DNA of 64,000 nucleotides from NCBI RefSeq assembly GCF_012272835.1, contig NZ_JAAWWK010000001.1:806001-870000 (forward strand). Reading direction: 5' to 3'. Source of the DNA: Spongiibacter thalassae. Lineage in GTDB: Bacteria; Pseudomonadota; Gammaproteobacteria; Pseudomonadales; Spongiibacteraceae. Shown here one piece after another: positions 406 through 49,688 of the stretch (the stretch's first letter is position 1; every line of letters begins with the position of its first letter). A model generated the notes under the pieces. That model was not told the origin of the DNA and made no database searches. It was given only the letters and a program-made list of their open reading frames with translations. Position numbers and translations under genes: made by a program.

Positions 406-432
406 TGTGACAAAAAGGAAGATAGTGTCTAA
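406..432. promoter_or_regulatory. Operator site 1 (ACA-N13-TGT dyad) over a promoter
   Basis: Half-sites TGTGACA and TGTCTAA are separated by exactly 13 bp. The site lies over a possible sigma70 promoter: -35 GTGACA at 407-412, 17-bp spacer, -10 TAAATT at 430-435, which would serve the three-gene unit starting at 525. Nine other sites of identical geometry occur in the window. The binding protein is unknown. Confidence 0.55.
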
Positions 433-524
433 ATTATAGGGCGATTGCCCAATAGTCATTTATTACCGTCGTCATTGTGACGACTAAAACGTTGTTAACG
501 ATAAGACTAATACGAGGCAGCAAG

Positions 525-1538
525 ATGAATGCAATTTTAGAGCAGAACAATTATTTGGACGGCATGGGTGTGCCAGCCGTAGATTCGCTGGTTAGCTTGG
601 CGCCAGCTTCTGCAAAGCTCTACGACGAACTTACTAAAGGCTTCGCGCCCGAATCAGCGGCGCTGAATTCGCCGCAGTCTTATTGGATTGCCTTTAACGC
701 GTGGATAACCAATGAACTTTCGCGCCGCATCATGAAAACCGAGGTCAGTGATAGTGAGTTTGGCGGGTTTTTATGGGCTGCCTATGCCTCGTCATATTGG
801 GGTGGTATGGAATTGCGGGAAAACTGGGGAATGCCGCCGGCGATGGAGAGACTCGGGATCGCACTGGAGCCTCCGTATCTGGAGACTCTCGATAACCTTG
901 CGGCGACCTTTAATTCGAGATTATCGGTGATGGCCCAGGGCAATGACAAATGCCTCGACTATGTCGATGATCTACTCCACGAAGACCTGAACGCCGGGGC
1001 ACTGTGGAACACGGCCTATAACGCAGGGTGTCAGGTAATTAAAACCGAGGACGCGCCAATAGGCCAGCGGCGTCCCCATCGTCGCCCACAGCCATCGATG
1101 GTGCGTATCAACACCCGTGACTTTATGCGTGTTGACTACGAGCTGCCTGCGCCGGAATACCTGCGTGTACTCCGCTCGGCCTTTGAGGTTGCGGTCACCT
1201 CGCAGCCAGAAACCTACGAGCAAATTATCGTGGGTAAAGACGGACAGAAAGACCTTCGGGAAATCTGGGCCGGCGGCGTTGGGTTTGGTAACACTTCCTG
1301 GGGAGATGGCGCCAATGATGCGTGGACGGACGAATATTTCGACGACACCCTGCATTGGAGCACCGTGGTGAATTTTGGCCTTGAGGCGGTAAGTTTGGCC
1401 TGTTTCGCGGCGTTGATAAACAAGGACGCAGATCTGGCGCGGCGTGCGGTAATGGGCAATGCCATGTATGCCGGTATGGCGACCGGTTGGCTGTTGGGGA
1501 TGCTGAATGTCGAAGGCAGTCTTCCCGCACGTGGTTAG
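525..1538 (+). CDS. Hypothetical protein, no recognised family
   Basis: A 337-residue soluble-looking protein that I do not recognise. ATG 525 is preferred over the upstream GTG at 477 because GAGG stands 7 bases before it. There is no signal peptide. The protein is rich in Trp and Tyr, with an acidic WGDGANDAWTDEYFDDT stretch near residues 260-275, an Arg/Pro/His patch near residue 180, and a hydrophobic Ala/Gly/Met-rich C-terminus that could be one membrane-associated helix. It begins a unit with a small membrane protein (32 bp downstream) and an NTF2-like protein, and site 1 lies upstream, so it is probably co-regulated with the catabolic genes. The residues do not reveal an enzyme class. 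Confidence 0.8.
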   Translation: MNAILEQNNYLDGMGVPAVDSLVSLAPASAKLYDELTKGFAPESAALNSPQSYWIAFNAWITNELSRRIMKTEVSDSEFGGFLWAAYASSYWGGMELRENWGMPPAMERLGIALEPPYLETLDNLAATFNSRLSVMAQGNDKCLDYVDDLLHEDLNAGALWNTAYNAGCQVIKTEDAPIGQRRPHRRPQPSMVRINTRDFMRVDYELPAPEYLRVLRSAFEVAVTSQPETYEQIIVGKDGQKDLREIWAGGVGFGNTSWGDGANDAWTDEYFDDTLHWSTVVNFGLEAVSLACFAALINKDADLARRAVMGNAMYAGMATGWLLGMLNVEGSLPARG

Positions 1539-1569
1539 GTTTTTTATTAATAATTAGAAGGATAGAACA

Positions 1570-2085
1570 ATGATGGGTATTTCGTTACCAGTCGATTTAA
1601 ATCGCCACCTGCGCAAGGAGATGGTGACTAATTTTGCGATAAATTTGGTGATTAATGGCGCGATTGCTTGGTTTGCCTTTGGCGCCAGCCAGCGCGTACC
1701 GATGTGGGGTGAGCACGGCTACGGTGCCGACCTCGCCATTACCGCCTTTTTTCTGTGCTGGATTATCGGTGCCATTTTTGTGGCGATGCACCGCAGTAAA
1801 GTGCGCAAGGGCAAATTTGCGCCCCTGGCGATAACGGTGCCGGCCTGGTTGCCGCGAAATGCCCTGTTGTTTGGCCTGTTGCTTGGCATAGTCGCACTGT
1901 TGACTGTCTTCCCTATTACAGTCGGAGTGTTGTGGGTGTTCGGTCTAAGCAATATAGATTTGCTGGCCTTCAGTATTTTTAAAGGTGCCTGGGCTGGAGT
2001 GCTTGCTTGCATTGTGATTCCTCCGTCGGTGATTTTTGGTATGGCGACGGTAGACGCCGCAGCACCGGTGAGCGCCGGTTCATAA
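1570..2085 (+). CDS. Small integral membrane protein, unknown
   Basis: A 171-residue protein with about four hydrophobic membrane segments (roughly residues 20-42, 55-77, 97-125 and 132-158) joined by short basic loops such as HRSKVRKGK. Start ATG 1570 is preceded by AGAAGGA. I do not recognise a transporter or enzyme motif. It lies between the unknown protein at 525 and the NTF2-like protein at 2106, with 31- and 20-bp gaps, so the three probably form one transcript. A role as membrane partner of the 525 product is possible but is inference from position only. Confidence 0.8.
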   Translation: MMGISLPVDLNRHLRKEMVTNFAINLVINGAIAWFAFGASQRVPMWGEHGYGADLAITAFFLCWIIGAIFVAMHRSKVRKGKFAPLAITVPAWLPRNALLFGLLLGIVALLTVFPITVGVLWVFGLSNIDLLAFSIFKGAWAGVLACIVIPPSVIFGMATVDAAAPVSAGS

Positions 2086-2105
2086 TAACGATGAGGAGTG
2101 AGAGT

Positions 2106-2477
2106 ATGGAAACCCTGCAAGCCGAAGGCATCGAGCGATTTTTACGCGCCCAATACCGCCTGTGGAACGAACAGAAGTTTGACGAAATGATCGAGCTGTT
2201 TCGCTCGGTGGCGCCAGGCAAACTCACGATTGAGTATGTTGGTCTTCCACCGCTGGATGGATGGAAGGCGCTGGACGAAATGTGTGAAGCCTACGGTGGT
2301 AAAACCCGTACCGACGTGCAGGAGCTGCTGATTAATGGCAACGAGGCCGCAGTACACGTGTTGAATCATCGGGATAAGGCCTCCGGTATTCCACCGTCAC
2401 CGAGCATCGAGTTCTATCGCTTCGACAAGGGGAATCTGGAAATACGCTATTTTTACCGAGCGAATCATCCGGTGTAA
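2106..2477 (+). CDS. NTF2/SnoaL-like protein (paralogue 1 of 3)
   Basis: A 123-residue protein of the NTF2-like (SnoaL) fold, a small cone-shaped alpha+beta fold used by isomerases, cyclases and hydratases. ATG 2106 follows GAGGAGTGAGAGT, so the longer frame from 2007 is not used. It shares the pattern RFLRAQYRLWNEQKFDEM followed by a IEYVG strand with two other small proteins here, at 8483-8830 and 21761-22126, which I take as paralogues. It is the most diverged of the three. The family does not fix a reaction. Its co-transcription with unknown genes and its relatives beside flavin monooxygenase and P450 genes suggest work on a pathway intermediate. Confidence 0.85.
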   Translation: METLQAEGIERFLRAQYRLWNEQKFDEMIELFRSVAPGKLTIEYVGLPPLDGWKALDEMCEAYGGKTRTDVQELLINGNEAAVHVLNHRDKASGIPPSPSIEFYRFDKGNLEIRYFYRANHPV

Positions 2478-2488
2478 GGGTAATGACT

Positions 2489-2519: not shown

Positions 2520-2531
2520 TGCCTGCGAGTG

Positions 2532-8857: not shown

Positions 8858-10084
8858 CTATTGGCTGATGTCCTGCAGCAGCTCAAGGTTGGATTCGGCG
8901 CCGAGTAGGGCGCGACCGTACAAGGCCATCGACAGGCGGCTGTTCAAGGCGTTGTGGCGGCTGCCCACATTGATGTCCCGCCACAGCCGCTGCATGGCAC
9001 TGCTTTGGGCGAAGCTGCCGGGGCCGGCGATATCCATCAGTTTTTCTGTGGCACTGCGCACCAGTTTCATTGCATACCCGCAGTCAGCTTGCATTTTTGC
9101 CTTCTCAAAACCCGTTAGGGCGCGTTGGGGAGAAACCTCGTCAACAAGGGCGACAGTGCGCTCGATATGCAGCCATGCCGACTCAATTTCCATTGTTGCT
9201 TCACCGAGAATACCGGCAAGAATTTCGGCGTCGGCCTGGCTGTCGTATTTCCAACCGATGATTTTGCGTTTGGCCATCGTTGAATTTACCGCCTCCTGCA
9301 AGCCCTGTGCGCCGCCGAGCATCGGCGCGAGCACCGTAAGCGGAAACAGGGGCTCAACAGGCCACAGGTCGCGGGGTTCCAGCGCGGCGCGTACAGCCGG
9401 GTCATCGCTGGTGCCGCTGCGCAATTTACTGAAAGAAAGGATTAGTTCGGGTGGAAGAACCAGCTTCTCGGCCACAACAGTGTTGCTTCCAGATGCACAA
9501 ACACCGGCGACCTGCCAGGTGTTTTTGATGTTCACCTGCGCGCTGTCTTTCAGCGGCATAATGGCAAAGCCGGCGTCTACCACATTGCCGTTATTGTCGA
9601 GAATGTTAATGCCGTTCATCGCCCAGTCAGCGTGCATGCATCCAGAGGCATAGGGCCAGCTACCGGTAATTTCGTACCCTTCGGAACAGGGTGTCGCGGT
9701 GCCGGTGCGGGCCGCTACGCTGCACACCAATTCATTTCCACGCTGAAATATTCGGTCGCGGGTCGGGACGGGAAGCGACGCCGCCGATGCCGATACACTG
9801 GACAATAGACCAAATGACCAGGCTGTGGCGGGATCGGCCTTGGCCAACTCTGCGACGGTTTTCAGATGGGTCAGCAGAGTATTGCCGACACCGCCGAAAC
9901 GCTTTGGGAACATCATTGTGAACAGGCCGCTTTCCTGTATTGCGGTAAACACTCTGGCGGACATTTTGCCCTGTGACTCGGCGTGTCCGGCTTCTTCGAG
10001 AAGAAGGGGCTTTAGAGCGGCAGCTGTGGCGATAGGATTCAGTGTTTGCGGCTTATTGCAGGCGTTAAGTTCGGTGTCATTCAT
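8858..10084 (-). CDS. HsaA/acyl-CoA-dehydrogenase-fold flavin monooxygenase
   Basis: A 408-residue protein of the acyl-CoA dehydrogenase fold in its two-component monooxygenase branch (group D: HsaA, HpaB-like, DszC). Evidence is the N-terminal helical domain (FPKRFGGVGN; KADPATAW), a beta domain with a GSWPYASGC segment (this branch uses GxWxxxSG rather than the CoA-type GSD motif), and the C-terminal domain ending RHNALNSR. It would hydroxylate an aromatic or enolised ring using reduced flavin delivered by a separate reductase, which is not in this window. The start is set at ATG 10084 (CGGAG upstream) rather than 10171. It is followed by the NTF2-like gene at 8830. Confidence 0.82.
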   Translation of the reverse strand: MNDTELNACNKPQTLNPIATAAALKPLLLEEAGHAESQGKMSARVFTAIQESGLFTMMFPKRFGGVGNTLLTHLKTVAELAKADPATAWSFGLLSSVSASAASLPVPTRDRIFQRGNELVCSVAARTGTATPCSEGYEITGSWPYASGCMHADWAMNGINILDNNGNVVDAGFAIMPLKDSAQVNIKNTWQVAGVCASGSNTVVAEKLVLPPELILSFSKLRSGTSDDPAVRAALEPRDLWPVEPLFPLTVLAPMLGGAQGLQEAVNSTMAKRKIIGWKYDSQADAEILAGILGEATMEIESAWLHIERTVALVDEVSPQRALTGFEKAKMQADCGYAMKLVRSATEKLMDIAGPGSFAQSSAMQRLWRDINVGSRHNALNSRLSMALYGRALLGAESNLELLQDISQ

Positions 10085-10184: not shown

Positions 10185-10745
10185 CTTTCGCGAGGGGCCT
10201 CGCTCTCACTGGCGGTTTGCTCGTGTTGTAGGAGCGAGTCCTGCTCGCCAAGGTGTTGGCGCAGGGTGGAATTCGCGAGGGAGCCTCGCTCCCACAGGGT
10301 TGGGGGTGGTTTGAGTGGTGGGAGCGAGCCCTGCTTGCGAAGGGTTTGCGCAGGGTGGGATTCACGAGGGAGCCTCGCTCCCACAGGGTTGGGGGTGGTT
10401 TGAATGGTAGGAGCGAGCCCTGCTCGCGAAGGGTTTGAGCAGGGTGGGATTCGCGAGGGAGCCTCGCTCCCATCGGGTTGGGGGTGGTTTGAATGGTAGG
10501 AGCGAGCCCTGCTCGCGAAGGTGTTGGCGCAGGGTGGAATTCGCGAGGGAGTCTCGCTCCCACAGGGTTGGGGGTGGTTTCAATGGTAGGAGCGAGCCCT
10601 GCTCGCGAGGGTGTTGGCGCAGGGCGAAATGCGCGAGGGAGCCTCGCTCCCACCGGGTTGGGGGGGGGTGAATGGTGGGAGCGAGCCCTGCTCGCGAAGG
10701 TGTTGGCGCAGGGAGGAGTTCGCGAGGGGGCCTCGCTCCCGCAGG
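10185..10745. repeat. Tandem BIME-like array of REP palindromes
   Basis: About six units of 89-90 bp repeat in tandem. Each contains a forward element GGAGCGAGCCCTGCTCGCGA, starting at 10231, 10321, 10410, 10499, 10589 and 10678, and an inverted partner TTCGCGAGGGAGCCTCGCTC in the second half. A seventh inverted partner opens the array near 10187. The element is itself an imperfect palindrome and closely resembles the REP element of Pseudomonas (GGGAGCGAGCCTGCTCGCGA type). Units differ by scattered substitutions. Such arrays are mobilised in trans by RAYT transposases; none is seen in this window. Open frames across the array are only translations of the repeat. Confidence 0.9.
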
Positions 10746-10916
10746 GTTTTTGTCCTATGTTATAGTGTTTTCGGTGATAACATGACGGCCGTCTTCGAGG
10801 GTATTGGTGAAGGGGGGGGGGCGCCGCAGGGGTATTTCCCCGATTTTCGGGTGAGTGCATGTCGCGAAGCCGATAAACAGCGGCCTTGATAACTATAGCT
10901 ATGAGAGAAACCCAAT
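10746..10916. other. Leader region before TonB receptor
   Basis: Between the REP array and the receptor at 10917 there is no gene. It contains the AT-rich stretch CCTATGTTATAGTGTTTTCG near 10753-10772 followed by an AACA, a possible promoter, and a run of nine G near 10812. I find no ACA-N13-TGT dyad here. Together with the array this accounts for the 832-bp gap from 10085 to 10916. Confidence 0.4.
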
Positions 10917-15036: not shown

Positions 15037-15960
15037 TTAACGAAGTCGTGCGGTAATTTTGGCGTGGGGGCCGTTTACCTGAGTTTCCCAAGCTGTAGCT
15101 GCGTCGTCGAAGTCAAAATCGAGGTAGTCGATTTCAATATTCTGCTCCGCCGAAATTGTCAGCAGGCGGCGCCAGATTTGTTCGCGATCCGCAGGGGGGC
15201 GCTGGCCGGTGCCTACGACCGAAAGCGTGCGGAAGAGCAGGTGGGCCATGTCCAGTTGAACTTCCCGCCCGGCTCCGGTGCCAATTGTCATAATCCGTGC
15301 GCCCCAGCGTGTAGCCTTGAGGGCATTGAGCATCGGCTGTCCGCAGACCAGATCCAGTACCACGTCGTAACCTTCCCCCGCGTCGGCTTTCAGTGCTGCG
15401 GCGTCATCCTCGGTGCCGAGGGCGACAACACTGTCGCAGATGCCTCGGGCCAATAGCTTGTCCAGTGAGGACTTGTCCCTGGCCGCGGCACTGACGTGGC
15501 CAGCGCCGAGATAGCGGGCCAGTTGCAGGGCGATCTGTCCAAGGGTGCCGGTGGCACCGAGAATCAATACTTTTTCACCTGCTTGAATATTGGCAGCTTC
15601 CAGGGGCACCAATGCGCCAGTCGCCGCGATACCCATAGCAATTGCTGTGCGATCGTCGACGCCGTCGGGAACTTCCCATACCTCTTCTTCCGGCACCAGA
15701 GTTTGTTCTGCCCAGGCCCCCCAGGGCAGAACGGAGCGCTCGCCAAAGTAGACTCGCTTGCCGTCAGTGGTATGGCCGACCCCTTCGCCACGGATTACAC
15801 AGGGATATTCAACACCAAGGCGATAGGCGCCCAATACGTCCCAGCCGCCGAGCCCGGCGGTGTCTACATTAATCAGAACCGCCCCCGCTTGTGGCTGGGG
15901 TGGTGCAAACTCCTGTATTTGTGGGGTTGCGCCGCGTTCGGTAATAACAGCCGCTTTCAT
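15037..15960 (-). CDS. Zinc-free quinone-oxidoreductase-like MDR enzyme
   Basis: A 307-residue medium-chain dehydrogenase/reductase without the structural zinc Cys cluster. It has an N-terminal GroES-like domain and a nucleotide domain with LILGATGTLGQIALQLAR, where the GATGTLG variant and following Ala/Arg residues suggest NADPH. Such enzymes reduce quinones or enones. The start is taken at ATG 15960, with GAGG upstream on the minus strand, not 16026. It is divergent from the TetR gene at 16120, and dyad site 2 lies in the shared gap, so it is a likely direct target of the same regulation. Confidence 0.87.
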   Translation of the reverse strand: MKAAVITERGATPQIQEFAPPQPQAGAVLINVDTAGLGGWDVLGAYRLGVEYPCVIRGEGVGHTTDGKRVYFGERSVLPWGAWAEQTLVPEEEVWEVPDGVDDRTAIAMGIAATGALVPLEAANIQAGEKVLILGATGTLGQIALQLARYLGAGHVSAAARDKSSLDKLLARGICDSVVALGTEDDAAALKADAGEGYDVVLDLVCGQPMLNALKATRWGARIMTIGTGAGREVQLDMAHLLFRTLSVVGTGQRPPADREQIWRRLLTISAEQNIEIDYLDFDFDDAATAWETQVNGPHAKITARLR

Positions 15961-16029: not shown

Positions 16030-16056
16030 TTAAACAAAATACATCAAAATGTTCAA
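16030..16056. promoter_or_regulatory. Operator site 2 (ACA-N13-TGT dyad), divergent TetR promoter
   Basis: TTAAACA-N13-TGTTCAA in the gap between the MDR gene (minus) and the TetR gene (plus). A possible -10 hexamer TACAAT at 16065-16070 lies just downstream on the plus strand. If the TetR protein binds here it would regulate itself, which is a common arrangement for that family. Nine other sites share this geometry. Confidence 0.6.
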
Positions 16057-16119
16057 TTAAGTGTTACAATATATTCACTTTCGAGACACTTTGCCTCTGT
16101 GCTGGTGTATATTGTGTCG

Positions 16120-16752
16120 ATGTTCAATAGTTCTAATCGAGAGGCAGGTGTGGCAGCGAGCAGTTTAACGACAACGGTGGCCCGCAGGCGGAACAAGCGG
16201 TCTGAAAATACCATTGAGGCAATTCTGGCGGCGGCAGAGGTTGTGATTCTTGAGTCGGGTGTCGAGCGGGTATCCATACTGGATGTGTGCAATGAGGCCG
16301 GTATCTCCAGAGGCACATTTTACCGCTACTTCTCTTCCCAGGATGAACTTCTTGAGGCGTTTTCCCGCCATAAGCGTAGCCGTTTTCACCAGGCTCTCGC
16401 CGACGCAGTTGGCCCCTATGACGACCCTGATGAGCGGTTTGACGCGTTTATTCGCTATCTAGATAACTATCTGCAGGTGGGGCGCTCGCGAAAGCTGCTG
16501 ATGGTGGCCCCCGACTACGCAATGGGCTGGTTCTTGCGCATATTCCATGACTCGATTTCCCGTTTTCAGTCGGATTTGACGATTGTGTTCGATGCCTGGG
16601 AGGAGCGCTCAGGGGTGGTGATTGATCGGGAGTTGGTCTGTGAACTCATCATTCGCTACATCCTCAGCGAACAACTGGTGCCTTCGAGCAAGCAGGCACG
16701 CAAGGCCTTGCCGAACAGAATCAAGCGCCTGGTGTTGGCCTTTCGAGCATAG
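16120..16752 (+). CDS. TetR family transcriptional regulator
   Basis: A 210-residue TetR-type repressor. The N-terminal helix-turn-helix is seen as ERVSILDVCNEAGISRGTFYRYFSSQDELLEAF; the rest is a helical ligand domain without recognisable identity. Three starts are possible: GTG 16099, ATG 16120 and GTG 16150. The last has the best ribosome site (GAGAGGCAGG) and would give 200 residues; I list ATG 16120 as a compromise. Dyad site 2 lies about 60 bp upstream, so this protein is the best local candidate for the regulator that recognises all ten sites. That link is inference. Confidence 0.87.
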   Translation: MFNSSNREAGVAASSLTTTVARRRNKRSENTIEAILAAAEVVILESGVERVSILDVCNEAGISRGTFYRYFSSQDELLEAFSRHKRSRFHQALADAVGPYDDPDERFDAFIRYLDNYLQVGRSRKLLMVAPDYAMGWFLRIFHDSISRFQSDLTIVFDAWEERSGVVIDRELVCELIIRYILSEQLVPSSKQARKALPNRIKRLVLAFRA

Positions 16753-16924: not shown

Positions 16925-18499
16925 ATGGATCAATCATCGTACGACGTTGCCATTGTTGGTGGCGGACACAATGGCCTGGCATCGGCCTGTTATTTAGCCA
17001 AAGCGGGTAAAAAAGTTGTGGTAGTCGAAGCATTGCCCCAGGTTGGCGGCATGTGCACCTCGGGCCCACTGATACCCGAGGCCCCCAATCACACGATCAA
17101 TCCCTGTGCCCTCGACCTGATGTCTCTGCGGGTGCACCCGATGATGATTGAGGAACTCGAGCTGGAGCGTCACGGCTTTGTTCAAAAGGAAATGAACCCC
17201 GGCTATGTCTACGTGCACCCCAACAAGGACACCCTGGTGTTCTTCCGTGACTACGAAAAAACCGCCGATGAAATTGCGCGTTACTCCACCAAGGACGCCG
17301 AGGCTTACCGAAAACTGATGCCAGTGGTGTTTGCCTTTGTCGATATGGCTTTGCCGCAAATGCGCGTTGACCCTGCGAGCTTTAACTTCAAGGCAAAATT
17401 GGCCTCACTGTTGGCGTTGATGAAAAACAGCGGCCGCAAAGATGAGATCATGGCGCTGGTCAGCAGCCCTGCCTACACCACAATTATGGAACGCTTTGAA
17501 CATCCGGTGGTGCGCTCCGCACTGTGCTGCTTGCTGGGGGCTGCTGGGCCAATTACCAACGAGGCGACCGGAATCTACTTTGTGCTGTTGGGCTTTATCC
17601 AGAAGTTCGGCCTGGGCCGTGCTATGGGTGGTATGCAGACCATCAGCGACGCGCTGGCTTCACGGTTGCGTGAGCTGGGGGGCGATATTCTGGTGAATGA
17701 GCCAGTTGCAGAAATCGTATCGAAAAACAAAAAAGTCAGTGGCATACGCCTGAAGAGTGGCAAAACCATTAGCGCCGCTGCGGTCGTTGCATCTATCCAC
17801 CCCAAGCAAGCCTTTGAAATGGTGACCGAGGGAGAAATGGACCGCGGTGCCCTGACCAAGGTACAGCTGGCGCCGGCGAACGCCCATGGTGGTTCGCCCA
17901 TCAAGATTGATCTGGCGCTCAGTGGTCAGGTCAATTATCACGAGCTGGAGGAAAAGCGGGGCGACGGTCTCAGTTTGCGCAAAAGTGTCTTGCTGATTGG
18001 CACCGAAGAGGCTGTGCTCGACAACTTTAAATGCGTTGGCCGTGGTCAGGTGTCGAAGCATCCGTATATGTGGATCACCGCCCCCACGGCGATGGACCCC
18101 AGTCAGGCCCCCAAAGGCCAGGATGTGGCCTATCTCTACCCGGTAGCGATGCCGCTTGATCCTGTAGAAGGCTGGGATGCTATCCGCGAGCAGGTTGCCA
18201 ACCAGGTTATTGATTGGGCGGCGGTATATATGAAAGGGCTCAAGGAGCTGGAAATTGGTCGCTGCATGGAGGTCGCACGGGACTGGGAGAAACGACTGAA
18301 TCTGCATAATGGCTGTGTGATTCATATCGACACCTGCACCACCCGTTCAGGGGGCATGCGCCCTGCGGCCGGCCTTGGTGGCGACCGGCTACCGGTGGAA
18401 GGCTTGTTTCTGGGTGGGGCGGGAATCCATCCCGGCGGCGGAGTGAATGGTATGCCAGGCCGTTTGGCAGCCGCGCGGGTTAAGCGTTACCTGCCTTAA
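16925..18499 (+). CDS. Phytoene-desaturase-like FAD oxidoreductase
   Basis: A 524-residue flavoprotein of the CrtI/CrtO type. It has the N-terminal VAIVGGGHNGLASACYLAKAG and EALPQVGGM motifs (FAD contacts) and the C-terminal GLFLGGAGIHPGGGVNGMPG segment that closes the FAD site. Members desaturate, isomerise or ketolate polyenes and terpenoid chains; many in catabolic clusters have no assigned substrate. ATG 16925 is preferred over 16901 because AGGGA stands just upstream. Its 3' end overlaps the 3' end of the convergent TetR gene by 20 bases. Confidence 0.87.
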   Translation: MDQSSYDVAIVGGGHNGLASACYLAKAGKKVVVVEALPQVGGMCTSGPLIPEAPNHTINPCALDLMSLRVHPMMIEELELERHGFVQKEMNPGYVYVHPNKDTLVFFRDYEKTADEIARYSTKDAEAYRKLMPVVFAFVDMALPQMRVDPASFNFKAKLASLLALMKNSGRKDEIMALVSSPAYTTIMERFEHPVVRSALCCLLGAAGPITNEATGIYFVLLGFIQKFGLGRAMGGMQTISDALASRLRELGGDILVNEPVAEIVSKNKKVSGIRLKSGKTISAAAVVASIHPKQAFEMVTEGEMDRGALTKVQLAPANAHGGSPIKIDLALSGQVNYHELEEKRGDGLSLRKSVLLIGTEEAVLDNFKCVGRGQVSKHPYMWITAPTAMDPSQAPKGQDVAYLYPVAMPLDPVEGWDAIREQVANQVIDWAAVYMKGLKELEIGRCMEVARDWEKRLNLHNGCVIHIDTCTTRSGGMRPAAGLGGDRLPVEGLFLGGAGIHPGGGVNGMPGRLAAARVKRYLP

Positions 18500-19142
18500 C
18501 GTCTGCGGGTGATGGCGGTGCGATCAGTGCCGCCAGCACAAAATCGGCAGTAAAGCGGCGCCAGACCTGCAAGTCTTCGCAATTGCGTGTGCTGATGGTG
18601 CTCAGTGAGTCAATCAGATAGCGGTTGGTATAGGCTCCTGCCACCATCAGGCAGGTGGTCACAAACACCAGCTCCGGATTCAGGTCTGAACGAAACTCAC
18701 CGCTGGCGCAGCCGCGATCAATCAGTTTTGTCATTTTTTCAGTGAGCTGCGGGCCGAGGTCAATAAAGCGGTTGGCCGGGGTAGTGTGGCTGTCATGGAA
18801 GCGAATGCCTTCGGTGGCAAGCTGTGCCATTTCCGGGTCTCGCTGGTAGGCATCGAATAAGTGTTCTATCAACACTCGCAGCCCCTCCACCGGCGGCAGG
18901 TGATCGAATTCCAGGGCGGTGAGGGCGGTCATGGTATTGTCTGAACTGACATCCAGAACACAGGCGAACAGCTGCTCCTTGCTGTTGTAGTAATGGTAGA
19001 CCAGTTGTTTGGTAACTCCGGCACGCTCGGCGATTTTCTTCACATTGGCCTTTTCCAGGCCGTGTTCGGCAAACTCTGCCTTTGCCGCCCGTAATATCAA
19101 CTCAATGGTCGCTGCCTTGCTTTGTTGCCTTGCGTTGGTCAT
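18480..19142 (-). CDS. TetR family transcriptional regulator
   Basis: A 220-residue TetR protein with a helix-turn-helix KANVKKIAERAGVTKQLVYHYYNSKEQLFACV and a longer ligand-binding domain, probably of the TetR_C branch that senses lipophilic molecules. Start ATG 19142 leads into the 185-bp divergent region shared with the P450 gene at 19328, where an inverted pair TCAAACAC/GTGTTTGA is found. It therefore probably controls itself and the P450 unit. Its end overlaps the convergent flavoprotein gene by 20 bases. Confidence 0.88.
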   Translation of the reverse strand: MTNARQQSKAATIELILRAAKAEFAEHGLEKANVKKIAERAGVTKQLVYHYYNSKEQLFACVLDVSSDNTMTALTALEFDHLPPVEGLRVLIEHLFDAYQRDPEMAQLATEGIRFHDSHTTPANRFIDLGPQLTEKMTKLIDRGCASGEFRSDLNPELVFVTTCLMVAGAYTNRYLIDSLSTISTRNCEDLQVWRRFTADFVLAALIAPPSPADVKAGNA

Positions 19143-19189: not shown

Positions 19190-19244
19190 TCAAACACATT
19201 TTCGGAAAAAGTTTACCACTTTATCTACACTCATAGGTGTTTGA
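19190..19244. promoter_or_regulatory. Widely spaced inverted repeat in TetR-P450 divergent region
   Basis: TCAAACAC (19190-19197) and GTGTTTGA (19237-19244) form a perfect 8-bp inverted pair 39 bp apart. The arms contain the CAAACA/TGTTTG core but do not have the 13-bp spacing seen elsewhere. They could be two operators of the TetR protein at 18480. Confidence 0.4.
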
Positions 19245-24934: not shown

Positions 24935-24961
24935 ATAGACATTAATATACATATTGTTCAT
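24935..24961. promoter_or_regulatory. Operator site 3 (ACA-N13-TGT dyad)
   Basis: ATAGACA-N13-TGTTCAT. On the plus strand it also reads as a promoter-like TAGACA-N17-CATATT. It lies 256 bp upstream of the TonB receptor start and 323 bp upstream of the SDR start. Confidence 0.5.
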
Positions 24962-25181
24962 ATTTGTGTAAACCGAAATTAGTTCGACCTGGTGTTCCAG
25001 CATGTGAGTACATGCCGTTTTTGGTCGGCTCGCCTCTAACTGTCGTGATATAAGGTATTCAGCGCCGTTTTTCGGCCCGGTAAAGCAAGGCGTCGGACGA
25101 CTTCCGGTAGCAAGGCGTCGCCCAGTAAGATGTGGGTATCCACAATTTTTTAGGTCGGTGAGGCGGGAAAATGAAAATTAA

Positions 25182-25208
25182 TTCAACACTATTGAATTAA
25201 ATGTATAG
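25182..25208. promoter_or_regulatory. Operator site 4 (ACA-N13-TGT dyad)
   Basis: TTCAACA-N13-TGTATAG, 75 bp upstream of the SDR gene at 25284. The right half-site is the weakest of the set beyond its TGT core, so this copy is less certain. Confidence 0.45.
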
Positions 25209-27721: not shown

Positions 27722-27748
27722 CTAAACACTATTGCTATAAATGTTCAA
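27722..27748. promoter_or_regulatory. Operator site 5 (ACA-N13-TGT dyad)
   Basis: CTAAACA-N13-TGTTCAA. Its right arm overlaps the likely -35 region of a plus-strand promoter whose -10 TATAAT lies at 27766-27771, 32 bp before the AhpD-like gene. Binding here would block RNA polymerase. Confidence 0.6.
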
Positions 27749-30837: not shown

Positions 30838-30864
30838 TTAGACATAAAATAGAAAAGTGTTTAA
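30838..30864. promoter_or_regulatory. Operator site 6 (ACA-N13-TGT dyad) over a promoter
   Basis: TTAGACA-N13-TGTTTAA. It includes a plus-strand sigma70 promoter: -35 TAGACA (30839-30844), 17-bp spacer, -10 TAATAT (30862-30867), 86 bp before the amidohydrolase gene. Its left half and spacing match site 10 upstream of the other amidohydrolase almost base for base. Confidence 0.65.
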
Positions 30865-34566: not shown

Positions 34567-34597
34567 TCAGTAACAGGCCCGCCGGGTCTGTTACTGA
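34567..34597. terminator. Bidirectional terminator hairpin
   Basis: TCAGTAACAG (34567-34576) pairs perfectly with CTGTTACTGA (34588-34597), with an inner CCC/GGG pairing in the loop. It lies in the 48-bp gap between the acyl-CoA dehydrogenase and LysR genes, which converge. Confidence 0.7.
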
Positions 34598-34603: not shown

Positions 34604-35536
34604 TCAGTTCGGTGGAGACAGCTCGTTGCTGTCGCTGGTGTCGATCAAAAACTGCTTGAACACTTCTATACATTCGTCCTGACCCCCGTCCTTCCAGATC
34701 AGTCCAACCTCCATTGGCGGCACCGGATCGAGTACCGGGACGCAGTCGATGCGCCGACCTTCCAGTGACCAGGGGCGAAATACCATGTCGGAAAGTATGG
34801 TGACACCAAACCCATGACCAATCAGCCCGCGCAGGGCCTCCATCGAACTGGTGCGAAATGCGATGTCCGGTGACAGTCCTGCGGCGGTTTTCCAGTAGCG
34901 CGCAGTGGAAACTTCGCCCTCATCGACGGTGATCTGGATATAGGGGTGCTCGCGAATATCGGCAAGGGAGGCACTGCCCTGATTGAGCAGCGGGTGGCCT
35001 GCAGCGGCCCACAGTTGGCGACGGGAGCGGATCAACACGCTGTGCTGAAAGTGCTCGCGCAGCTGGCTATTGGACAGAATTACCAATCCAAGGTCGATGC
35101 TGCCCTGTTCCAGCGACGACTCGATTTGCTCGCGATCAAGATCAAGCAGATCAAATTCCACCATTGGGTGGCGGGTGCGGAACCGCCCCATCAACGACGG
35201 TAGAAAATAGCCGAGCAGCGTATAGGAGGCCGCGAGACGAATCCTGCCACGCAGATCCTGTGCATTGCTCACCGGGTCGGCAACCGCATCTTCAAGTGCG
35301 TCGAGAATATGGCGAATACGAAGGAAAAAACGGTTTCCCTCTGCGGTGAGGGTCACGCCCTGGGCCTGGCGAAGAAACAGGCGGGTTTGCAGGGTTTCCT
35401 CGAGATTGAGAATCGCGGTGGTAATGGTCGATTGAGACACGTGCAGGCGGGTGGCGGCGACCGACAACCGGCCGCTCTCCGCTGCGGCGGCAAAATAGCG
35501 CAGTTGTTTTAGCGATATATTCTGAAGACCGATCAT
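34604..35536 (-). CDS. LysR family transcriptional regulator
   Basis: A 310-residue LysR-type regulator: N-terminal winged helix-turn-helix (LKQLRYFAAAAESGRLSVAATRLHVSQSTITTAI) followed by the two-lobed effector domain starting near residue 90. It lies 61 bp downstream of the extradiol dioxygenase gene on the same strand, so it is likely at the end of the ferredoxin-SDR-dioxygenase transcript. This is unusual, as LysR genes are more often divergent from their targets. Its effector may be a ring-cleavage intermediate. The ACA-N13-TGT dyads do not look like the T-N11-A box of LysR proteins. Confidence 0.9.
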   Translation of the reverse strand: MIGLQNISLKQLRYFAAAAESGRLSVAATRLHVSQSTITTAILNLEETLQTRLFLRQAQGVTLTAEGNRFFLRIRHILDALEDAVADPVSNAQDLRGRIRLAASYTLLGYFLPSLMGRFRTRHPMVEFDLLDLDREQIESSLEQGSIDLGLVILSNSQLREHFQHSVLIRSRRQLWAAAGHPLLNQGSASLADIREHPYIQITVDEGEVSTARYWKTAAGLSPDIAFRTSSMEALRGLIGHGFGVTILSDMVFRPWSLEGRRIDCVPVLDPVPPMEVGLIWKDGGQDECIEVFKQFLIDTSDSNELSPPN

Positions 35537-37366: not shown

Positions 37367-37597
37367 CTAGTCGATCAGGGTGACTTTGAGAACTTCCGCC
37401 GGACAGCACTCTGCGCCTTCTATAGCAGATTCTACGAGATCCCCGGAGACGGTATCGGTGGCGAGATAAACGATGCCGTTATCGTCTAGCTTGTAGATTT
37501 CCGGGCACATGGACGCGCACAGGCCGTAACCGCAGCAGTTGGGAATGTCTGCGGTAATTTTGTACGTACTTTTACTGATGTTCGCGGCATTTGACAT
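37367..37597 (-). CDS. P450-type ferredoxin
   Basis: A 76-residue acidic ferredoxin of the type that serves bacterial P450s. The cluster motif starts CCGYGLCASMCP (residues 21-32) and ends CCP near residue 64. In the C-x2-X-x2-C pattern of single-cluster 3Fe-4S ferredoxins the variable position X is Tyr24. Extra Cys residues next to the ligands (Cys22, Cys31 and one of the CCP pair) are unusual. It heads the minus-strand unit with the SDR and extradiol dioxygenase and probably donates electrons to one or both P450s. No ferredoxin reductase is encoded in the window. Confidence 0.88.
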   Translation of the reverse strand: MSNAANISKSTYKITADIPNCCGYGLCASMCPEIYKLDDNGIVYLATDTVSGDLVESAIEGAECCPAEVLKVTLID

Positions 37598-37669: not shown

Positions 37670-37696
37670 TTACACACAAATTAAAAATATGTCACT
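37670..37696. promoter_or_regulatory. Operator site 7 (ACA-N13-TGT dyad), divergent
   Basis: TTACACA-N13-TGTCACT in the 337-bp AT-rich gap between the ferredoxin unit (minus) and the TonB receptor (plus). It could control both. No gene is seen in the rest of this gap. Confidence 0.5.
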
Positions 37697-37934: not shown

Positions 37935-40400
37935 ATGGTATCCGTAACCAAGCGATCCAAGGTGTTCTATACGTCAGCCCTGAGCGCCGGCATTCTCGCA
38001 GCGTCCGGCTTGGCCTATGCGCAATCACCCGCGGAGACAACTAAAAAAGAGAGCCTGACTCTCGAAGAGGTGTTGGTTAGCGCTCGTCGCAGTGAAGAGG
38101 GCGCGCAGAATGTACCGGTCACGGTCGACGTTCTTGACACCGATGGCCTTCGCGAGGCGACCATTGTCAGCACCACAGACCTGCAACAAAATGTTCCCGG
38201 TATTTTTCTTGGTGGTAGCGGCGGCCCGCAGAATCCGCTGTATGTTATCCGCGGACAATCCAAGGGTTTGATCGGCACCACTTCTCCCGCGGTGGTCAGT
38301 TATTATGCCGAGGTGCCGCAACCTTCCTGGGGGAGTGCGGTGCCCCAGTACGATATGGCAAATATTCAGGTATTGAAGGGGCCGCAGGGCACCCTCTTTG
38401 GCCGCAATACTACTGGCGGCGCTATCCTCTATTCTCCCGCTGCGCCGGAGCACGAGTTTTCCGGTTTCATTAATGGCACGCTGGGACGTCACAAGCAAAC
38501 CCGCTTGCAGGGTGCGGTGAACATTCCTCTGATTAAAGATCAGCTTGCCGCAAGGGTGGCAGCGGATTTCCACAAACGCGATGGCTACGTCAAGAATATC
38601 GGCGAGGGGGATGATCTCGAAGCCATTGATACCGAGTCCTTCCGTATTTCACTGCTGGCGGACTACGGCGCACTGCGCAACACGTTTATCTACGACAGCT
38701 TCTCCAGCGACAACGACGGTTTTAATATTCATCCGCAAACCGTTTATGAGCCATCTGCACTGAACCAGCTGGGTATCGCGGAGGAGGTCAAGGCCGATGT
38801 GGAGCGCCTGAAAGCGCTTGGGCCCCTCGTTAACGATTCCGCCTTTGATCAGCATGAGCGCAACGACCGTATCACGATTGTTAATCGCACTGAGTTTGAC
38901 TTCAATGACAACGTCAGCCTGTTGAACCTGTTTGGTTATCAGGAAACCGATCTGGATTACGCGCCGAATATAGACGGTCTCGGGCTATATAAGAGCCCGG
39001 CAGTGGAGCAGGGGCTGATGCTCGCCTTCGGTCCGGCTTACCAGGATTCGCGTACCTCTATCGTGAAGGCGCGTTTGATTGACAAAACCAAGCAATTGAG
39101 CAACGAGCTGCAGCTGCGCGGCACCGCCTTTGACAGCCGCATGGAGTGGTTGCTGGGCGCCTTTTATTTGAAGAATGAGCCGGATGAAATCGGCCAGATC
39201 AACGGTACAACTGTGGCGCAGACCCAGTACGAAACCTCGATTCCCGGAATGGAAGTGGGCTATACCAACGGTGGTGCCCAGCATTTCTTCCTCACCGACG
39301 AATCCCGCGCGCTGTTCGCCCGTACTGAATACGATCTGTCTGAAACCCTTGCTGTCGAAGTTGGCGTGCGCTACACCGAAGACGAGTTTGAACTGTGTTT
39401 GGGTTCCGACACCAAGCCCCAGTGGTTGGGTTCTGATCCCACCTACTTTGACGAGGCGGCCTGTCGTCGCGGTGATACCGACGTCATCGTGAATTCGGCT
39501 GTGGTGACTGAAAGCTCGGAAGCGCTGACCTGGACGCTGGGCTTGAATTGGCAGGCGACTGACGACGTCTTCGCCTATGGTGTCCTGCGTCACGGCTACC
39601 GTGCCGGTGGCGCCAACGGCCCCATCTTCAGTGGTGATCTGGCCAGCTACCAGACCTTTAAGCCGGAAGAGGTCGATGACCTGGAGCTGGGGGTTAAAGC
39701 TGACTGGAATATCAATGAGATTCCCGTGCGGACCAATCTGTCTTACTTCTATGGCAAGTACGAAAATGCCCAGGCTGACCTTGCCGGTGGTGTGACAACT
39801 GCGCGCAACTGTACCCCCACGGGTTCGGCGCAGCCCGGGGTTGACCCAGATGGTGACTGCTCAAGCAGCAATGATCCTACCGGCGGCGCGATTGTGTTTA
39901 ACATTGGTGATACCAGTGTTAAAGGCGTCGATATGGAAGTGACGGCGCGCTTTACCCAGAGTCTGACGGTCAGTGTGAACGCTACCGTTCAGGACGCGGA
40001 TATCGACAAAATCTACGACCAGCCCAATGCCTACATTGACGCCAAGGTCAGCAGTGCGATTCCCTTCCTGTACTTCACCAATTCGGTGGTTCAGGCCAAC
40101 GTAAACTACAGCATCCCGATGGGTAAAACTGCTGAAGAGCTGTCGTTGAACATGAATTACTACAAGACTTCTGCGGCGGACAAGGGTGATACCGATATTC
40201 CCGCCTACGATCTGGTGAATGTGCGCGCGGACCTCTACAACATCGCCGCGGCAAATGTCGATGTCGGGGTGTTTGTTAATAATGTGTTCGACGAGGAGTA
40301 CGCGATTTCGTCGTCGATCTCCAGTCGCGCACTGGGTCTGGATTCCTTTGTGTTTGGTCCGCCACGTCTGTTCGGTGTTGACGTGCGCTACAACTTTTAA
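37935..40400 (+). CDS. TonB-dependent receptor
   Basis: An 821-residue outer-membrane receptor: signal peptide (about residues 1-30, ending AYAQ), TonB-box-like LEEVLVSARRSEE, plug strands YVIRGQSKG and VLKGPQGTLFGRNTTGGAI, and a barrel that ends VDVRYNF. A Cys-containing surface loop near residues 625-650 (RNCTPTGS...GDCSSS) may form a disulfide. ATG 37935 follows GAGAGGAT. It is divergent from the ferredoxin/extradiol unit across dyad site 7 and is followed by a strong terminator, so it is transcribed alone. Confidence 0.93.
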   Translation: MVSVTKRSKVFYTSALSAGILAASGLAYAQSPAETTKKESLTLEEVLVSARRSEEGAQNVPVTVDVLDTDGLREATIVSTTDLQQNVPGIFLGGSGGPQNPLYVIRGQSKGLIGTTSPAVVSYYAEVPQPSWGSAVPQYDMANIQVLKGPQGTLFGRNTTGGAILYSPAAPEHEFSGFINGTLGRHKQTRLQGAVNIPLIKDQLAARVAADFHKRDGYVKNIGEGDDLEAIDTESFRISLLADYGALRNTFIYDSFSSDNDGFNIHPQTVYEPSALNQLGIAEEVKADVERLKALGPLVNDSAFDQHERNDRITIVNRTEFDFNDNVSLLNLFGYQETDLDYAPNIDGLGLYKSPAVEQGLMLAFGPAYQDSRTSIVKARLIDKTKQLSNELQLRGTAFDSRMEWLLGAFYLKNEPDEIGQINGTTVAQTQYETSIPGMEVGYTNGGAQHFFLTDESRALFARTEYDLSETLAVEVGVRYTEDEFELCLGSDTKPQWLGSDPTYFDEAACRRGDTDVIVNSAVVTESSEALTWTLGLNWQATDDVFAYGVLRHGYRAGGANGPIFSGDLASYQTFKPEEVDDLELGVKADWNINEIPVRTNLSYFYGKYENAQADLAGGVTTARNCTPTGSAQPGVDPDGDCSSSNDPTGGAIVFNIGDTSVKGVDMEVTARFTQSLTVSVNATVQDADIDKIYDQPNAYIDAKVSSAIPFLYFTNSVVQANVNYSIPMGKTAEELSLNMNYYKTSAADKGDTDIPAYDLVNVRADLYNIAAANVDVGVFVNNVFDEEYAISSSISSRALGLDSFVFGPPRLFGVDVRYNF

Positions 40401-44492: not shown

Positions 44493-44519
44493 GTAGACAG
44501 AATATACAAATATGTTTAG
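44493..44519. promoter_or_regulatory. Operator site 8 (ACA-N13-TGT dyad), divergent
   Basis: GTAGACA-N13-TGTTTAG in the 239-bp gap between the DUF35/thiolase-like/SDR unit (minus) and the FAH-Rieske unit (plus). It is one of the better matches and sits 72 bp upstream of the DUF35 gene start. Confidence 0.6.
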
Positions 44520-45650: not shown

Positions 45651-45658
45651 ATAAAGAA

Positions 45659-47098: not shown

Positions 47099-47139
47099 GA
47101 TTGCGCTAATTTTAAAAAGAATTGAAAACAGGTGAAATC

Positions 47140-47700
47140 ATGACTAGTGAAAACGCATCCGTAGATTTTTTCGAGCAGTGCGGCGACGAACTTGCCATTG
47201 GCAGCGAAATCTACAACAAAGTGCTGGGCTTTTATCACAAGGAAGCCCGGCTGCTGGACAATCTGAAGTTTATGGAGTGGGCTGAAACCCTCGCCACAGA
47301 CATTCAATACAATGTGCCGATTCGCCAAACCCGTTTGGTGAAGGACTCCCAGTCCTCGGTGCTGTATTCCATGCGTCATATGTACGAGGACTATCGCTCG
47401 CTGATGGGCCGAGCGATGCGGCTGAGCGGCAACAGTGCATGGGCGGAAGACCCAGCCTCGCGCACCCGCCGTTTTGTCAGCAATCTGGCGGTGTTTGCAA
47501 CCGGCACCGAGGGGGAGTACGCGGCAGTCAGCTACTTGCTGATTACCCGTAACCGCTTTGATGACGACCACTTCGATCTGATTCCCTGCGAGCGTCGCGA
47601 TATTGTTCGTTTGGAAGATGGTGTGTGGAAGCTGGCCAAGCGCGATGTCATTCTCGACCAGGTGTTACTGGGTACGCCCAACCTGGCGATATTCCTCTAA
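47140..47700 (+). CDS. Ring-hydroxylating dioxygenase, beta subunit
   Basis: A 186-residue small subunit with the NTF2-like fold. It has FYHKEARLLDN, the VPIRQTRLVKDS segment and the strongly conserved C-terminal pattern RRDIVRLEDGVWKLAKRDVILDQ. It builds the alpha3beta3 dioxygenase with the protein at 45710. ATG 47140 is used (AGGTGA upstream). The last 46 codons and the stop are repeated directly downstream by a perfect 147-bp tandem duplication; the real gene ends at the first TAA (47698-47700), which gives the normal family length. Confidence 0.92.
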   Translation: MTSENASVDFFEQCGDELAIGSEIYNKVLGFYHKEARLLDNLKFMEWAETLATDIQYNVPIRQTRLVKDSQSSVLYSMRHMYEDYRSLMGRAMRLSGNSAWAEDPASRTRRFVSNLAVFATGTEGEYAAVSYLLITRNRFDDDHFDLIPCERRDIVRLEDGVWKLAKRDVILDQVLLGTPNLAIFL

Positions 47701-47852
47701 AGCACTGATGACGACCACTTCGATCTGATTCCCTGCGAGCGTCGCGATATTGTTCGTTTGGAAGATGGTGTGTGGAAGCTGGCCAAGCGCGATGTCATTC
47801 TCGACCAGGTGTTACTGGGTACGCCCAACCTGGCGATATTCCTCTAAAGCAC
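47559..47852 (+). repeat. Perfect 147-bp tandem duplication
   Basis: Bases 47559-47705 are repeated without a single difference as 47706-47852. Identity continues for 2 more bases (TG), which gives 2-bp junction microhomology. The unit holds the 3' end of the beta-subunit gene and its stop. The period equals 49 codons, so both copies are in the same frame. Confidence 0.95.
47706..47847 (+). pseudogene. Duplicated 3' end of the dioxygenase beta-subunit gene
   Basis: The second copy of the tandem duplication encodes the last 46 residues of the beta subunit (from DDDHFDLIP to AIFL) and a second TAA at 47845-47847, but has no start codon or ribosome site. It is in frame with the real gene, so stop-codon readthrough would add 49 residues. 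It is a fragment created by a recent duplication, or an assembly artefact. Confidence 0.85.
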
Positions 47853-47878
47853 TGTTGCCCGCCACGGCGGGCGACGCC

Positions 47879-47911
47879 AGGCGGTGAGGCTCAGCCTGCA
47901 CCGCCTTTTTT
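47879..47911 (+). terminator. Rho-independent terminator
   Basis: AGGCGGTG (47879-47886) pairs with CACCGCCT (47899-47906), followed by six T (47906-47911). A second hairpin, GCCCGCC/GGCGGGC, lies just before it near 47858-47873. Both stand after the duplicated beta-subunit end, so the duplication happened upstream of the original terminator. Confidence 0.85.
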
Positions 47912-47968
47912 ATACTCAGGCGTGCCGGTAAGTGTGCTGAGCCTGATTTGCCCCGCGTTCAACCGTTT

Positions 47969-48718: not shown

Positions 48719-48744
48719 TCGAACTCCGGTAGGCAAACGCTAAA

Positions 48745-48771
48745 AGTTACATTATTATCCAAAGTGTCTAA
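48745..48771. promoter_or_regulatory. Operator site 9 (ACA-N13-TGT dyad) over a promoter
   Basis: AGTTACA-N13-TGTCTAA between the DUF2889-like gene and the SDR gene. Plus-strand promoter elements overlap it: GTTACA (48746-48751), 17-bp spacer, TAATTA (48769-48774). The right half and following bases are nearly the same as in site 1. Confidence 0.55.
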
Positions 48772-48802
48772 TTATAAATTATATATCAAGAGAGATAACA
48801 AT

Positions 48803-49603
48803 ATGGCGATGTTGGAAAACAAAGTGGCTCTGATTACCGGGGCCGGTGGTGGTATCGGTCAGGGCATCGCCCGTCGTTTTGCCCGCGAAGGCGCCTGCGT
48901 CATTGTAGCGGAAATTGATGAGGCCACCGGGCGGGCGACCGCCGAGCAGGTCAACGAACTCGGTGGCAAGGGCTTGTTTGTCGCCACGGATGTCACCGAC
49001 AAGGCATCGGTGGAGGCGGCGGTTGAGGCAGCTGTTGAGCACTTCGGCGGTCTGGATATTCTGGTGAACAATGCCTTTGTGCCCTCGGCTAACGTGTTGC
49101 TGGAGGACAAAACCGACGAGATGCTGGAGCGCACACTCACCTCTACGGTAAAAGCCTCCTGGTGGGCGATGCGAGCGGCGTTGCCCCATATGAAACAACG
49201 CGGCGGCGGCAAGGTCATTAACTTCTGCTCCATCGATGTCGAAGTCGGTGCCTGGTTGCATGCGGACTACAACACCGCCAAAGCTGGGGTGGTCGGGCTG
49301 ACGCGCAGCGCCGCAGCAGAGTGGGGCCGGTTCAATATCACCGTTAACGCCATTGCCCCCACAGCAATGGGCGCGACCTTCCATAAATTTGCCAAGGAAA
49401 ACCCGGGTTTTGCCGAGCGTGCGGCGGCGATGCGGCCAATGGGTCGCTGTGGCGACCCGGAACACGATATCGGGCCTGCGGCGTTGTTCCTTGCCAGTGA
49501 TCTCTCCTGTTACGTAACGGGCGAAACATTGCATGTAGATGGTGGCCTGCACCTGCCGGGTTATAACTCGCGGCCGGAAAATGTTCCGGTGAGGGAATAC
49601 TAG
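48803..49603 (+). CDS. SDR family oxidoreductase
   Basis: A 266-residue classical short-chain dehydrogenase with ALITGAGGGIGQGIARRF, VNNAF, INFCSIDVEV with Ser, YNTAKAG as catalytic Tyr/Lys and a normal LHVDGGLHLPG ending. ATG 48803 (AAGAGAG upstream) is preferred over 48764. It stands alone under dyad site 9, in the stretch between the Rieske genes and the seven-gene unit, so it could be the cis-diol dehydrogenase or a later 3-hydroxyacyl oxidation enzyme. Confidence 0.88.
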   Translation: MAMLENKVALITGAGGGIGQGIARRFAREGACVIVAEIDEATGRATAEQVNELGGKGLFVATDVTDKASVEAAVEAAVEHFGGLDILVNNAFVPSANVLLEDKTDEMLERTLTSTVKASWWAMRAALPHMKQRGGGKVINFCSIDVEVGAWLHADYNTAKAGVVGLTRSAAAEWGRFNITVNAIAPTAMGATFHKFAKENPGFAERAAAMRPMGRCGDPEHDIGPAALFLASDLSCYVTGETLHVDGGLHLPGYNSRPENVPVREY

Positions 49604-49661
49604 GGCCGGTAAGGCTCTGGGCTGAAGGTAAGTATTGCGAAGCGGTAAAAACAACAAAATA

Positions 49662-49688
49662 TTAGACATAAAAGCTATTAGTGTTTAT
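49662..49688. promoter_or_regulatory. Operator site 10 (ACA-N13-TGT dyad) over a promoter
   Basis: TTAGACA-N13-TGTTTAT, 110 bp upstream of the amidohydrolase gene. A plus-strand promoter overlaps: -35 TAGACA (49663-49668), 17-bp spacer, -10 TATATT (49686-49691). This would drive the seven-gene unit 49799-56521. Confidence 0.65.

Follow-up and report, generated by a model that had tools for sequence, protein, structure and literature searches.

The window analysed here comprises 64,000 nt of the genome of Spongiibacter thalassae (GCF_012272835.1, contig NZ_JAAWWK010000001.1, positions 806,001-870,000, forward strand). In its non-coding DNA a 27-bp palindrome with the core ACA-N13-TGT recurs, and judged from its distribution in this and other genomes the dyad is a real, evolutionarily conserved control site. 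The dyads are likely to be the operators of a TetR-type protein encoded in the window (TetR-A, Table 1), which would control its own promoter and promoters in up to 16 other gaps of a large cluster, probably for the catabolism of a polycyclic compound.

Ten dyads with exactly 13 bases between the cores had been reported in the first-pass annotation of this DNA, and all ten are present; an eleventh at 24945 overlaps the one at 24935 with an offset of 10 bp. In the whole window ACA-N13-TGT is matched 23 times, whereas 100 shuffles yield 11.94 matches on average and never more than 21. Twelve of the 23 matches count as background: 11 fall inside called genes, and the twelfth, at 34573, is located in a short gap. 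The shuffles correspond to about one match per 5.4 kb, for which the earlier estimate of one per 4 kb is slightly high. The non-coding DNA had been estimated as roughly 2 kb, while our gene calls give three times as much, 42 segments with 6,166 bp. It contains 12 dyads (34573 included) against 1.86 expected (p 6.5e-7). For an unbiased count each of the 64 trinucleotides was combined with its own reverse complement at spacings of 0-24, which gives 1600 inverted dyads. Among these ACA-N13-TGT ranks sixth in the non-coding DNA of the window; the first rank goes to GAG-N5-CTC, which owes it entirely to an unrelated tandem array (10228-10748). As control DNA we took 14 stretches from elsewhere in this genome, 280 kb with 41,657 bp of non-coding sequence; here the dyad does not exceed background (7 seen, 9.3 expected, rank 1231).

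Thirty non-coding sites, taken from 8 loci of other genomes, were used for a weight matrix; the non-coding DNA of this genome served as background. The training sites were picked by the ACA-N13-TGT core, prompted by the finding in the first-pass annotation. In the scan of this genome, positions of at least 12 bits with this matrix from other genera are counted as sites, and all bit scores of the window sites in Table 1 come from this matrix only. The window contains 12 non-coding and no coding sites, the 120 kb of flanking DNA 8 and 1, and the 280 kb of control DNA 1 and 1. All eight non-coding flank sites are located upstream, 46,320 to 2,568 bases before the window, which brings the total to 20 non-coding sites in a stretch of ~96 kb. 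The set of ten sites that had been reported is real but too small, and the proposed regulon would continue ~46 kb upstream of the window.

The consensus T-NN-ACA-NN-WW-N5-WW-NN-TGT-NN-A, which was chosen after viewing the logos of both data sets, occurs at 15 places in 4.40 Mb, 13 of them within C1:759,681-855,687, and its reversed control once. A variant with 15 bases between the cores is found at three places (reversed control: one). The strict pattern TTNRACA-N13-TGTYNAA has four matches in the genome, three among the described sites and one inside a gene at 39897. If two mismatches to TTARACA-N13-TGTYTAA are allowed, the 25 places in the whole genome are not above the 30 of the reversed control, so that this count proves nothing by itself. 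The informative part is the clustering of the good matches: with at most one mismatch all four places are inside the ~96-kb stretch. A genome scan, which had been suggested as a check, speaks for the proposal both by the exact matches, which are concentrated in this stretch, and by the matrix, whose sites in the window are all non-coding.

A search of genome contigs with TetR-A revealed 12 loci (59-74% identity) in Aestuariicella, Massilia, Telluria, Azohydromonas, Glaciimonas, Colwellia and Paraburkholderia/Burkholderia. Relatives of the window enzymes are encoded in the seven loci that were inspected. When the non-coding DNA of seven representative loci is counted, ACA-N13-TGT takes first place among the 1600 dyads (27 seen, 4.2 expected, p 1.3e-13), and it does so too in all 12 loci (37 seen, 6.6 expected). 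In the 12 loci none of 211,058 fully coding but 53 of 31,574 non-coding positions reach 12 bits, where up to 27 of the 53 are training sites, many others are counterparts from sister species, and partly coding positions, with two matches of 13.9 bits, fall in neither class. That an AT-rich intergenic composition produces such dyads by chance would agree with the background share of the raw window matches and with the two-mismatch count of the genome. However, intergenic control DNA of this genome shows no excess, and beside TetR-A the signal is also seen in GC-rich loci of other genera (62-69% GC). On the grounds of the control DNA and of this conservation we rejected chance and base composition, to which we attach practically no probability.

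At orthologous promoters the dyad is partly conserved, and it is the top inverted dyad in orthologous clusters of other genera, as the proposal of a common regulon would predict. For these comparisons the matrices omit the clade being scored and include this genome's own sites. Where the own promoter reaches 12 bits, 23 of 50 orthologous promoters do so as well, compared to 8 of 50 in all others, i.e. those with a weaker own site or without upstream non-coding DNA. The Fisher p of 0.001 is optimistic because the pairs are not all independent: some divergent genes share a gap and several loci come from one family. One miss, the TetR-A promoter of L057, reflects a gene call that starts inside the gene. 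The clear cases are the 27852 gene, a coenzyme A (CoA) ligase upstream of the window, the amidohydrolase 49799, the P450 19328 and TetR-A.

TetR_N is the only Pfam family above cut-off in TetR-A, whose true start may be the ATG at 16120. The AlphaFold2 model is all-helical with a mean predicted local distance difference test (pLDDT) score of 76.2 and disordered residues 1-30. Many of its top 50 Foldseek matches have TetR-family titles (E 1e-4 to 1e-3, template modelling score normalised to the query 0.41-0.66). Among the other proteins of this genome the closest match to TetR-A has 33% identity in the helix-turn-helix region. Matches in 37 relatives were rejected as orthologs, the best one outside this genome reaching 49 bits and 23% identity. 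All 12 TetR-A orthologs sit in loci with sites.

Independent of TetR-A, the Rieske alpha subunit was searched at 1e-130 in the order (390 genomes) and in the family of G045, Paraburkholderia aspalathi (398 genomes). Four and five genomes were matched, respectively, and six of the nine are new. Five of these six have a TetR-A (53-66% identity) and a site of 19.8-23.3 bits. It lies directly upstream of Rieske in G700, G720 and G547, the last of which has two Rieske genes. In G163 and G353, whose matches have identical scores, it is upstream of the gene preceding Rieske, which is an FAA hydrolase as in the window. The sixth, G060, has a TetR of 25% identity beside one of three Rieske genes, and no non-coding site of at least 10 bits was found in four pieces of 3.3-4.4 kb; one position of 10.4 bits is inside a called gene. 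Likewise, no site of at least 10 bits could be identified in a Novosphingobium plasmid region of 31 kb with 1,767 bp called non-coding (TetR 28.5%). A Caulobacter plasmid with a TetR-A of 38.6% identity contains a 15.8-bit site between Rieske alpha and ferredoxin and a second one of 12.6 bits between an amidohydrolase and an MFS gene.

The sites could also belong to another regulator, namely TetR-B, the LysR protein (34604-35536) or a further TetR upstream of the window. TetR-B adjoins the 19190 site, its Massilia orthologs adjoin strong sites, and orthologs of 43-65% are present in 12 of 14 records. However, Azohydromonas and Glaciimonas contain strong sites and no close ortholog, the best identity being 30-31%. 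LysR is likewise retained by most genomes that have the cluster (12 of 14 records, threshold 1e-40), but at this threshold it is missing from Massilia timonae, which has strong sites, and from the record of the site-bearing Caulobacter plasmid, and in Azohydromonas its identity is 45% at best. LysR sites are usually of the type T-N11-A and not palindromes of 27 bp, which also counts against LysR. Concerning the genes upstream, L028:5278-5919 is a relative of TetR-B; its matches elsewhere are TetR-B orthologs where both were searched, with none in Azohydromonas and Glaciimonas. For L027:17995-18588 no ortholog was found in 10 of 10 genomes, in a search that had no positive control and is therefore uninformative. 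Taken together we consider another regulator unlikely. TetR-A is the best candidate because the sites track it, while TetR-B and LysR are missing from some site-bearing genomes. The suggestion that one protein could control the whole set is supported; among the candidates named at that time, the evidence points to the TetR at 16099/16120 rather than to the TetR at 18480 or the LysR at 34604.

Symmetrised logos were made from 19 own and 24 other sites. As the training sites had been selected by this core, its ACA and TGT are invariant by construction, which is not the case for the flanking and inner preferences. Beyond ACA (positions 5-7) and its mirror these are T at position 2 and A/T at positions 9-11, in all own sites and in 40 to 46 of the 48 half-sites elsewhere, and an A/T bias 1-3 bases outside the 27-bp core. 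The centre of the ACA box is 16 bp from that of the TGT box. The inner A/T-rich boxes (positions 9-12) would fit the geometry of two putative dimers per site. In the excerpted part of PMC4150764, TetR operators of one dimer have 15-17 bp and those of two dimers 22-32 bp (QacR 28, CgmR 32, Ms6564 31, CprB 22 bp). The predicted operator of 27 bp would, by these published lengths, fit the two-dimer class. Arms centred 20 bp apart had been regarded as unusual for a simple TetR operator, but long operators are nothing exceptional in the TetR family as a whole, given the 22-32 bp of its dimer-of-dimers members in that source. At 24935/24945 two full dyads are offset by one helical turn, and the second overlaps a predicted promoter on the - strand.

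A dispersed mobile repeat, for which the many copies in one cluster would speak, is extremely improbable. Almost no information is found in the flanks beyond ~5 bp or in the middle of the spacer, and the copies are positioned in gaps before genes; the repeat was rejected because flanks are not shared among the copies.

In six of the 20 sites, positions 2-7 form a -35-like hexamer that goes with a 17-bp spacer: those at 406 (GTGACA), 30838, 37670 (GTGACA within the arm, - strand) and 49662, and two upstream of the window. The statement that at least four sites overlap a sigma70-type promoter with such a spacer holds for the four named here. Promoter scores are higher at the sites (mean 9.4) than at 300 composition-matched non-coding positions (7.7, p 3.6e-4). 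The simplest reading would be repression that is released by a pathway intermediate. Without inducer TetR-A would occupy the 27-bp palindrome, perhaps as two dimers, and as this coincides with the -35 to -10 stretch at part of the promoters RNA polymerase would be blocked there. An intermediate, perhaps an acyl-CoA or an oxidised terpenoid, would release TetR-A. What the sequences show is the site, its clustering in this stretch, its conservation along with the cluster and TetR-A, and the overlap with promoter-like sequence. We infer binding by TetR-A, repression rather than activation, an inducer and binding as two dimers. TetR-A might instead activate, or activate as well as repress, like LuxR of Vibrio; dual regulators of the TetR type exist (PMC2628434, as far as the part consulted goes), and the distances between site and gene start vary from 31 to over 500 bp. 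However, the six hexamers within an arm are in the classic position of a repressor, and we judge activation improbable.

Several points weigh against repression of the cluster by TetR-A. The 12 comparison loci were found via TetR-A, and its co-occurrence with the sites is thus partly built in; only the Rieske-based search is free of that selection, and it covered short loci. At the orthologous promoters 27 of 50 are below 12 bits. The putative autoregulatory site at 16030 scores well in Aestuariicella (19.9 bits), Massilia timonae (22.2) and Telluria (23.1) but is not universal (Paraburkholderia 11.5, Colwellia 5.1, Glaciimonas -1.9, Azohydromonas -3.2). In the stretch four TetR-type genes besides TetR-A were identified. 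Finally, the gain in promoter score is partly circular, because the arm resembles TTGACA.

Table 1. Dyads of the window with scores at orthologous promoters or gaps, and TetR-type genes of the ~96-kb stretch.
Feature	Position	Strand	Location or assignment	Score	Orthologous promoters or gaps (bits)
Dyad	406..432		upstream of gene 477/525 (no Pfam family)	13.9 bits	
Dyad	16030..16056		divergent gap, zinc-binding dehydrogenase 15037-15960 (-) / TetR-A (+)	21.6 bits	see text
Degenerate dyad	19190..19216		between TetR-B (-) and cytochrome P450 19328-20608 (+)	13.2 bits	Paraburkholderia 23.0, Massilia timonae 20.0, Telluria 13.9; no site: Colwellia 6.2, Aestuariicella 0.2
Dyad, first of overlapping pair	24935..24961		upstream of TonB receptor 22358-24679 (-)	20.4 bits	
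Dyad, second of overlapping pair	24945..24971		upstream of TonB receptor 22358-24679 (-)	19.1 bits	
Dyad	25182..25208		upstream of short-chain dehydrogenase-like gene 25284-26096 (+)	16.7 bits	
Dyad	27722..27748		upstream of carboxymuconolactone-decarboxylase-family gene 27804/27852-28319 (+)	22.7 bits	Massilia timonae, Telluria, Massilia putida, Colwellia 15.7-24.5; no site: Glaciimonas -7.6, Aestuariicella -10.2
Dyad	30838..30864		upstream of amidohydrolase 30954-32261 (+)	23.3 bits	Colwellia 22.4; within 250 bp: Aestuariicella -0.5 (dyad further upstream, L045:1024), Azohydromonas -26.0
Dyad	37670..37696		between ferredoxin 37367-37597 (-) and TonB receptor 37935-40400 (+)	17.7 bits	
Dyad	44493..44519		between DUF35/thiolase genes (-) and FAA hydrolase-Rieske genes (+)	18.9 bits	FAA-hydrolase promoter: G163 22.7; no site: Glaciimonas -3.3
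Dyad	48745..48771		divergent gap, DUF2889 gene (-) / short-chain dehydrogenase (SDR) 48803-49603 (+)	15.2 bits	Glaciimonas 19.3, Paraburkholderia 12.2, Azohydromonas 1.8
Dyad	49662..49688		upstream of amidohydrolase 49799-50881 and a run of + strand catabolic genes	21.0 bits	Azohydromonas, Glaciimonas, Paraburkholderia 16.4-21.4; no site: Caulobacter -6.0, G163 -13.2
TetR-A	16099-16752	+	proposed regulator; PF00440 TetR_N, E 1.4e-13	50.8 bits (cut-off 24)	
TetR-B	18480-19142	-	TetR-type gene		
TetR-B relative	L028:5278-5919		TetR-type gene		
TetR	L027:17995-18588		TetR-type gene		
TetR	L028:16586-17290		TetR-type gene		

The list of target genes that had been drawn up mostly stands, with qualifications for two genes. 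The P450 19328 has only the weak site at 19190, and the Rieske gene 45710 is without a good site directly upstream (6.7 bits); it would be reached via the preceding gene 44661.

The enzymes of the cluster were assigned by Pfam and NCBIfam. Two P450s are encoded in the window and one upstream. For the Rieske alpha subunit the nearest model is HcaE, whose cut-off is missed by a wide margin (225 of 830 bits); the beta subunit narrowly misses that of one HcaF-like model (136.5 of 145). Further genes encode a BphC-like extradiol dioxygenase, FAA hydrolases, a CoA ligase, thiolases, acyl-CoA dehydrogenases, SDRs, amidohydrolases and several TonB receptors. The ferredoxin, which is followed by an SDR and the extradiol dioxygenase, matches single-cluster 4Fe-4S families. 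Our guess from this set of enzymes is that the substrate would be a polycyclic compound, probably a terpenoid; comparisons of the P450 families did not decide the substrate. The cluster was probably acquired horizontally, and a recent gain is suggested since none of 16 congeners has the Rieske gene at 1e-130.

Within the cluster a protein of 344 residues (20671-21705) has no Pfam match and is 65-84% identical in five related clusters. Its model, which is of low confidence (pLDDT 61), resembles an AttH-like protein, fungal [4+2] pericyclases and kievitone hydratase. The tandem array at 10228-10748, upstream of the TonB receptor 10989, has an 89-bp unit in 5.8 copies with 90% matches and GAGC...GCTC palindromes, which we take to be reminiscent of Pseudomonas-type repetitive extragenic palindromic elements. 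A perfect two-copy tandem duplication of 147 bp (47559-47854) overlaps the 3' end of the Rieske beta-subunit gene and is either a recent event or an assembly artefact. In the intergenic control DNA (L031-L044) CTA-N12-TAG and related dyads are strongly over-represented (29 seen, 4.6 expected), which may mark a further repeat family or regulon.

Catabolic regulons under a TetR repressor that has a palindromic operator are well known. KstR, which acts in the cholesterol catabolism of actinobacteria, is a TetR-type regulator with a large polycyclic-compound regulon, and its operator is a shorter palindrome; the match of TetR-A to KstR is weak and limited to the helix-turn-helix (22.5 bits, cut-off 280). 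RolR of Corynebacterium glutamicum is the best phmmer match in the PDB (3aqs, E 7.1e-11, query residues 11-123). According to the portion of PMC3086911 consulted, RolR is a TetR-type regulator of the catabolism of a ring compound, resorcinol. Its recognition motif GxGxFY gives way to GISRGTFYRYF in TetR-A, with the match confined to the N-terminal half. With regulators of the QacR/CgmR/CprB type, which are dimers of dimers, TetR-A shares TetR_N, the all-helical model and a long palindromic predicted operator (27-bp core); unlike these it would control a catabolic cluster and not an efflux pump.

With the dit cluster of Pseudomonas abietaniphila and Paraburkholderia xenovorans the window shares P450s, Rieske alpha and beta, an extradiol dioxygenase, a ferredoxin, a CoA ligase, thiolases and SDRs, types that also occur in other pathways. 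This likeness is one of enzyme types and of gene roles. The dit cluster for abietane diterpenoids and its gene roles are described in the sections consulted of PMC10710418, PMC13063091 and PMC3570484, and those of the first two do not describe a TetR-type dit regulator with this operator. No description of this regulator or operator was found in the literature searched, a scope that left most subscription papers outside.

Some forms of the regulator differ from that of the window. In Glaciimonas immobilis (L048:9146-11275, NZ_JAAOZT010000017.1) one open reading frame of ~710 codons contains three tandem TetR-A-like units, each with a helix-turn-helix. Orthologs from Burkholderiales (L046, L047, L050, L052, ~9730-10000) have long N-terminal tails rich in Lys, Ala and Pro, which are histone H1-like, and the TetR-A of the window is without such a tail.

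Tentatively, TetR-A may be the master repressor of a horizontally moving polycyclic-terpenoid module, the operator of which would have been kept across gamma-, beta- and, weakly, alphaproteobacteria despite the divergence of the promoters, with a Glaciimonas form that would be a single chain of ~710 residues with three tandem TetR units. If true, this chain would be out of the ordinary in a family whose members usually act as dimers. The analysis provides a testable regulator, an operator and a list of targets for a large catabolic cluster, and the operator may be used to find further pathway genes elsewhere and to build a substrate sensor. It also gives an example of a DNA site that is conserved together with a TetR protein through an apparent horizontal spread.

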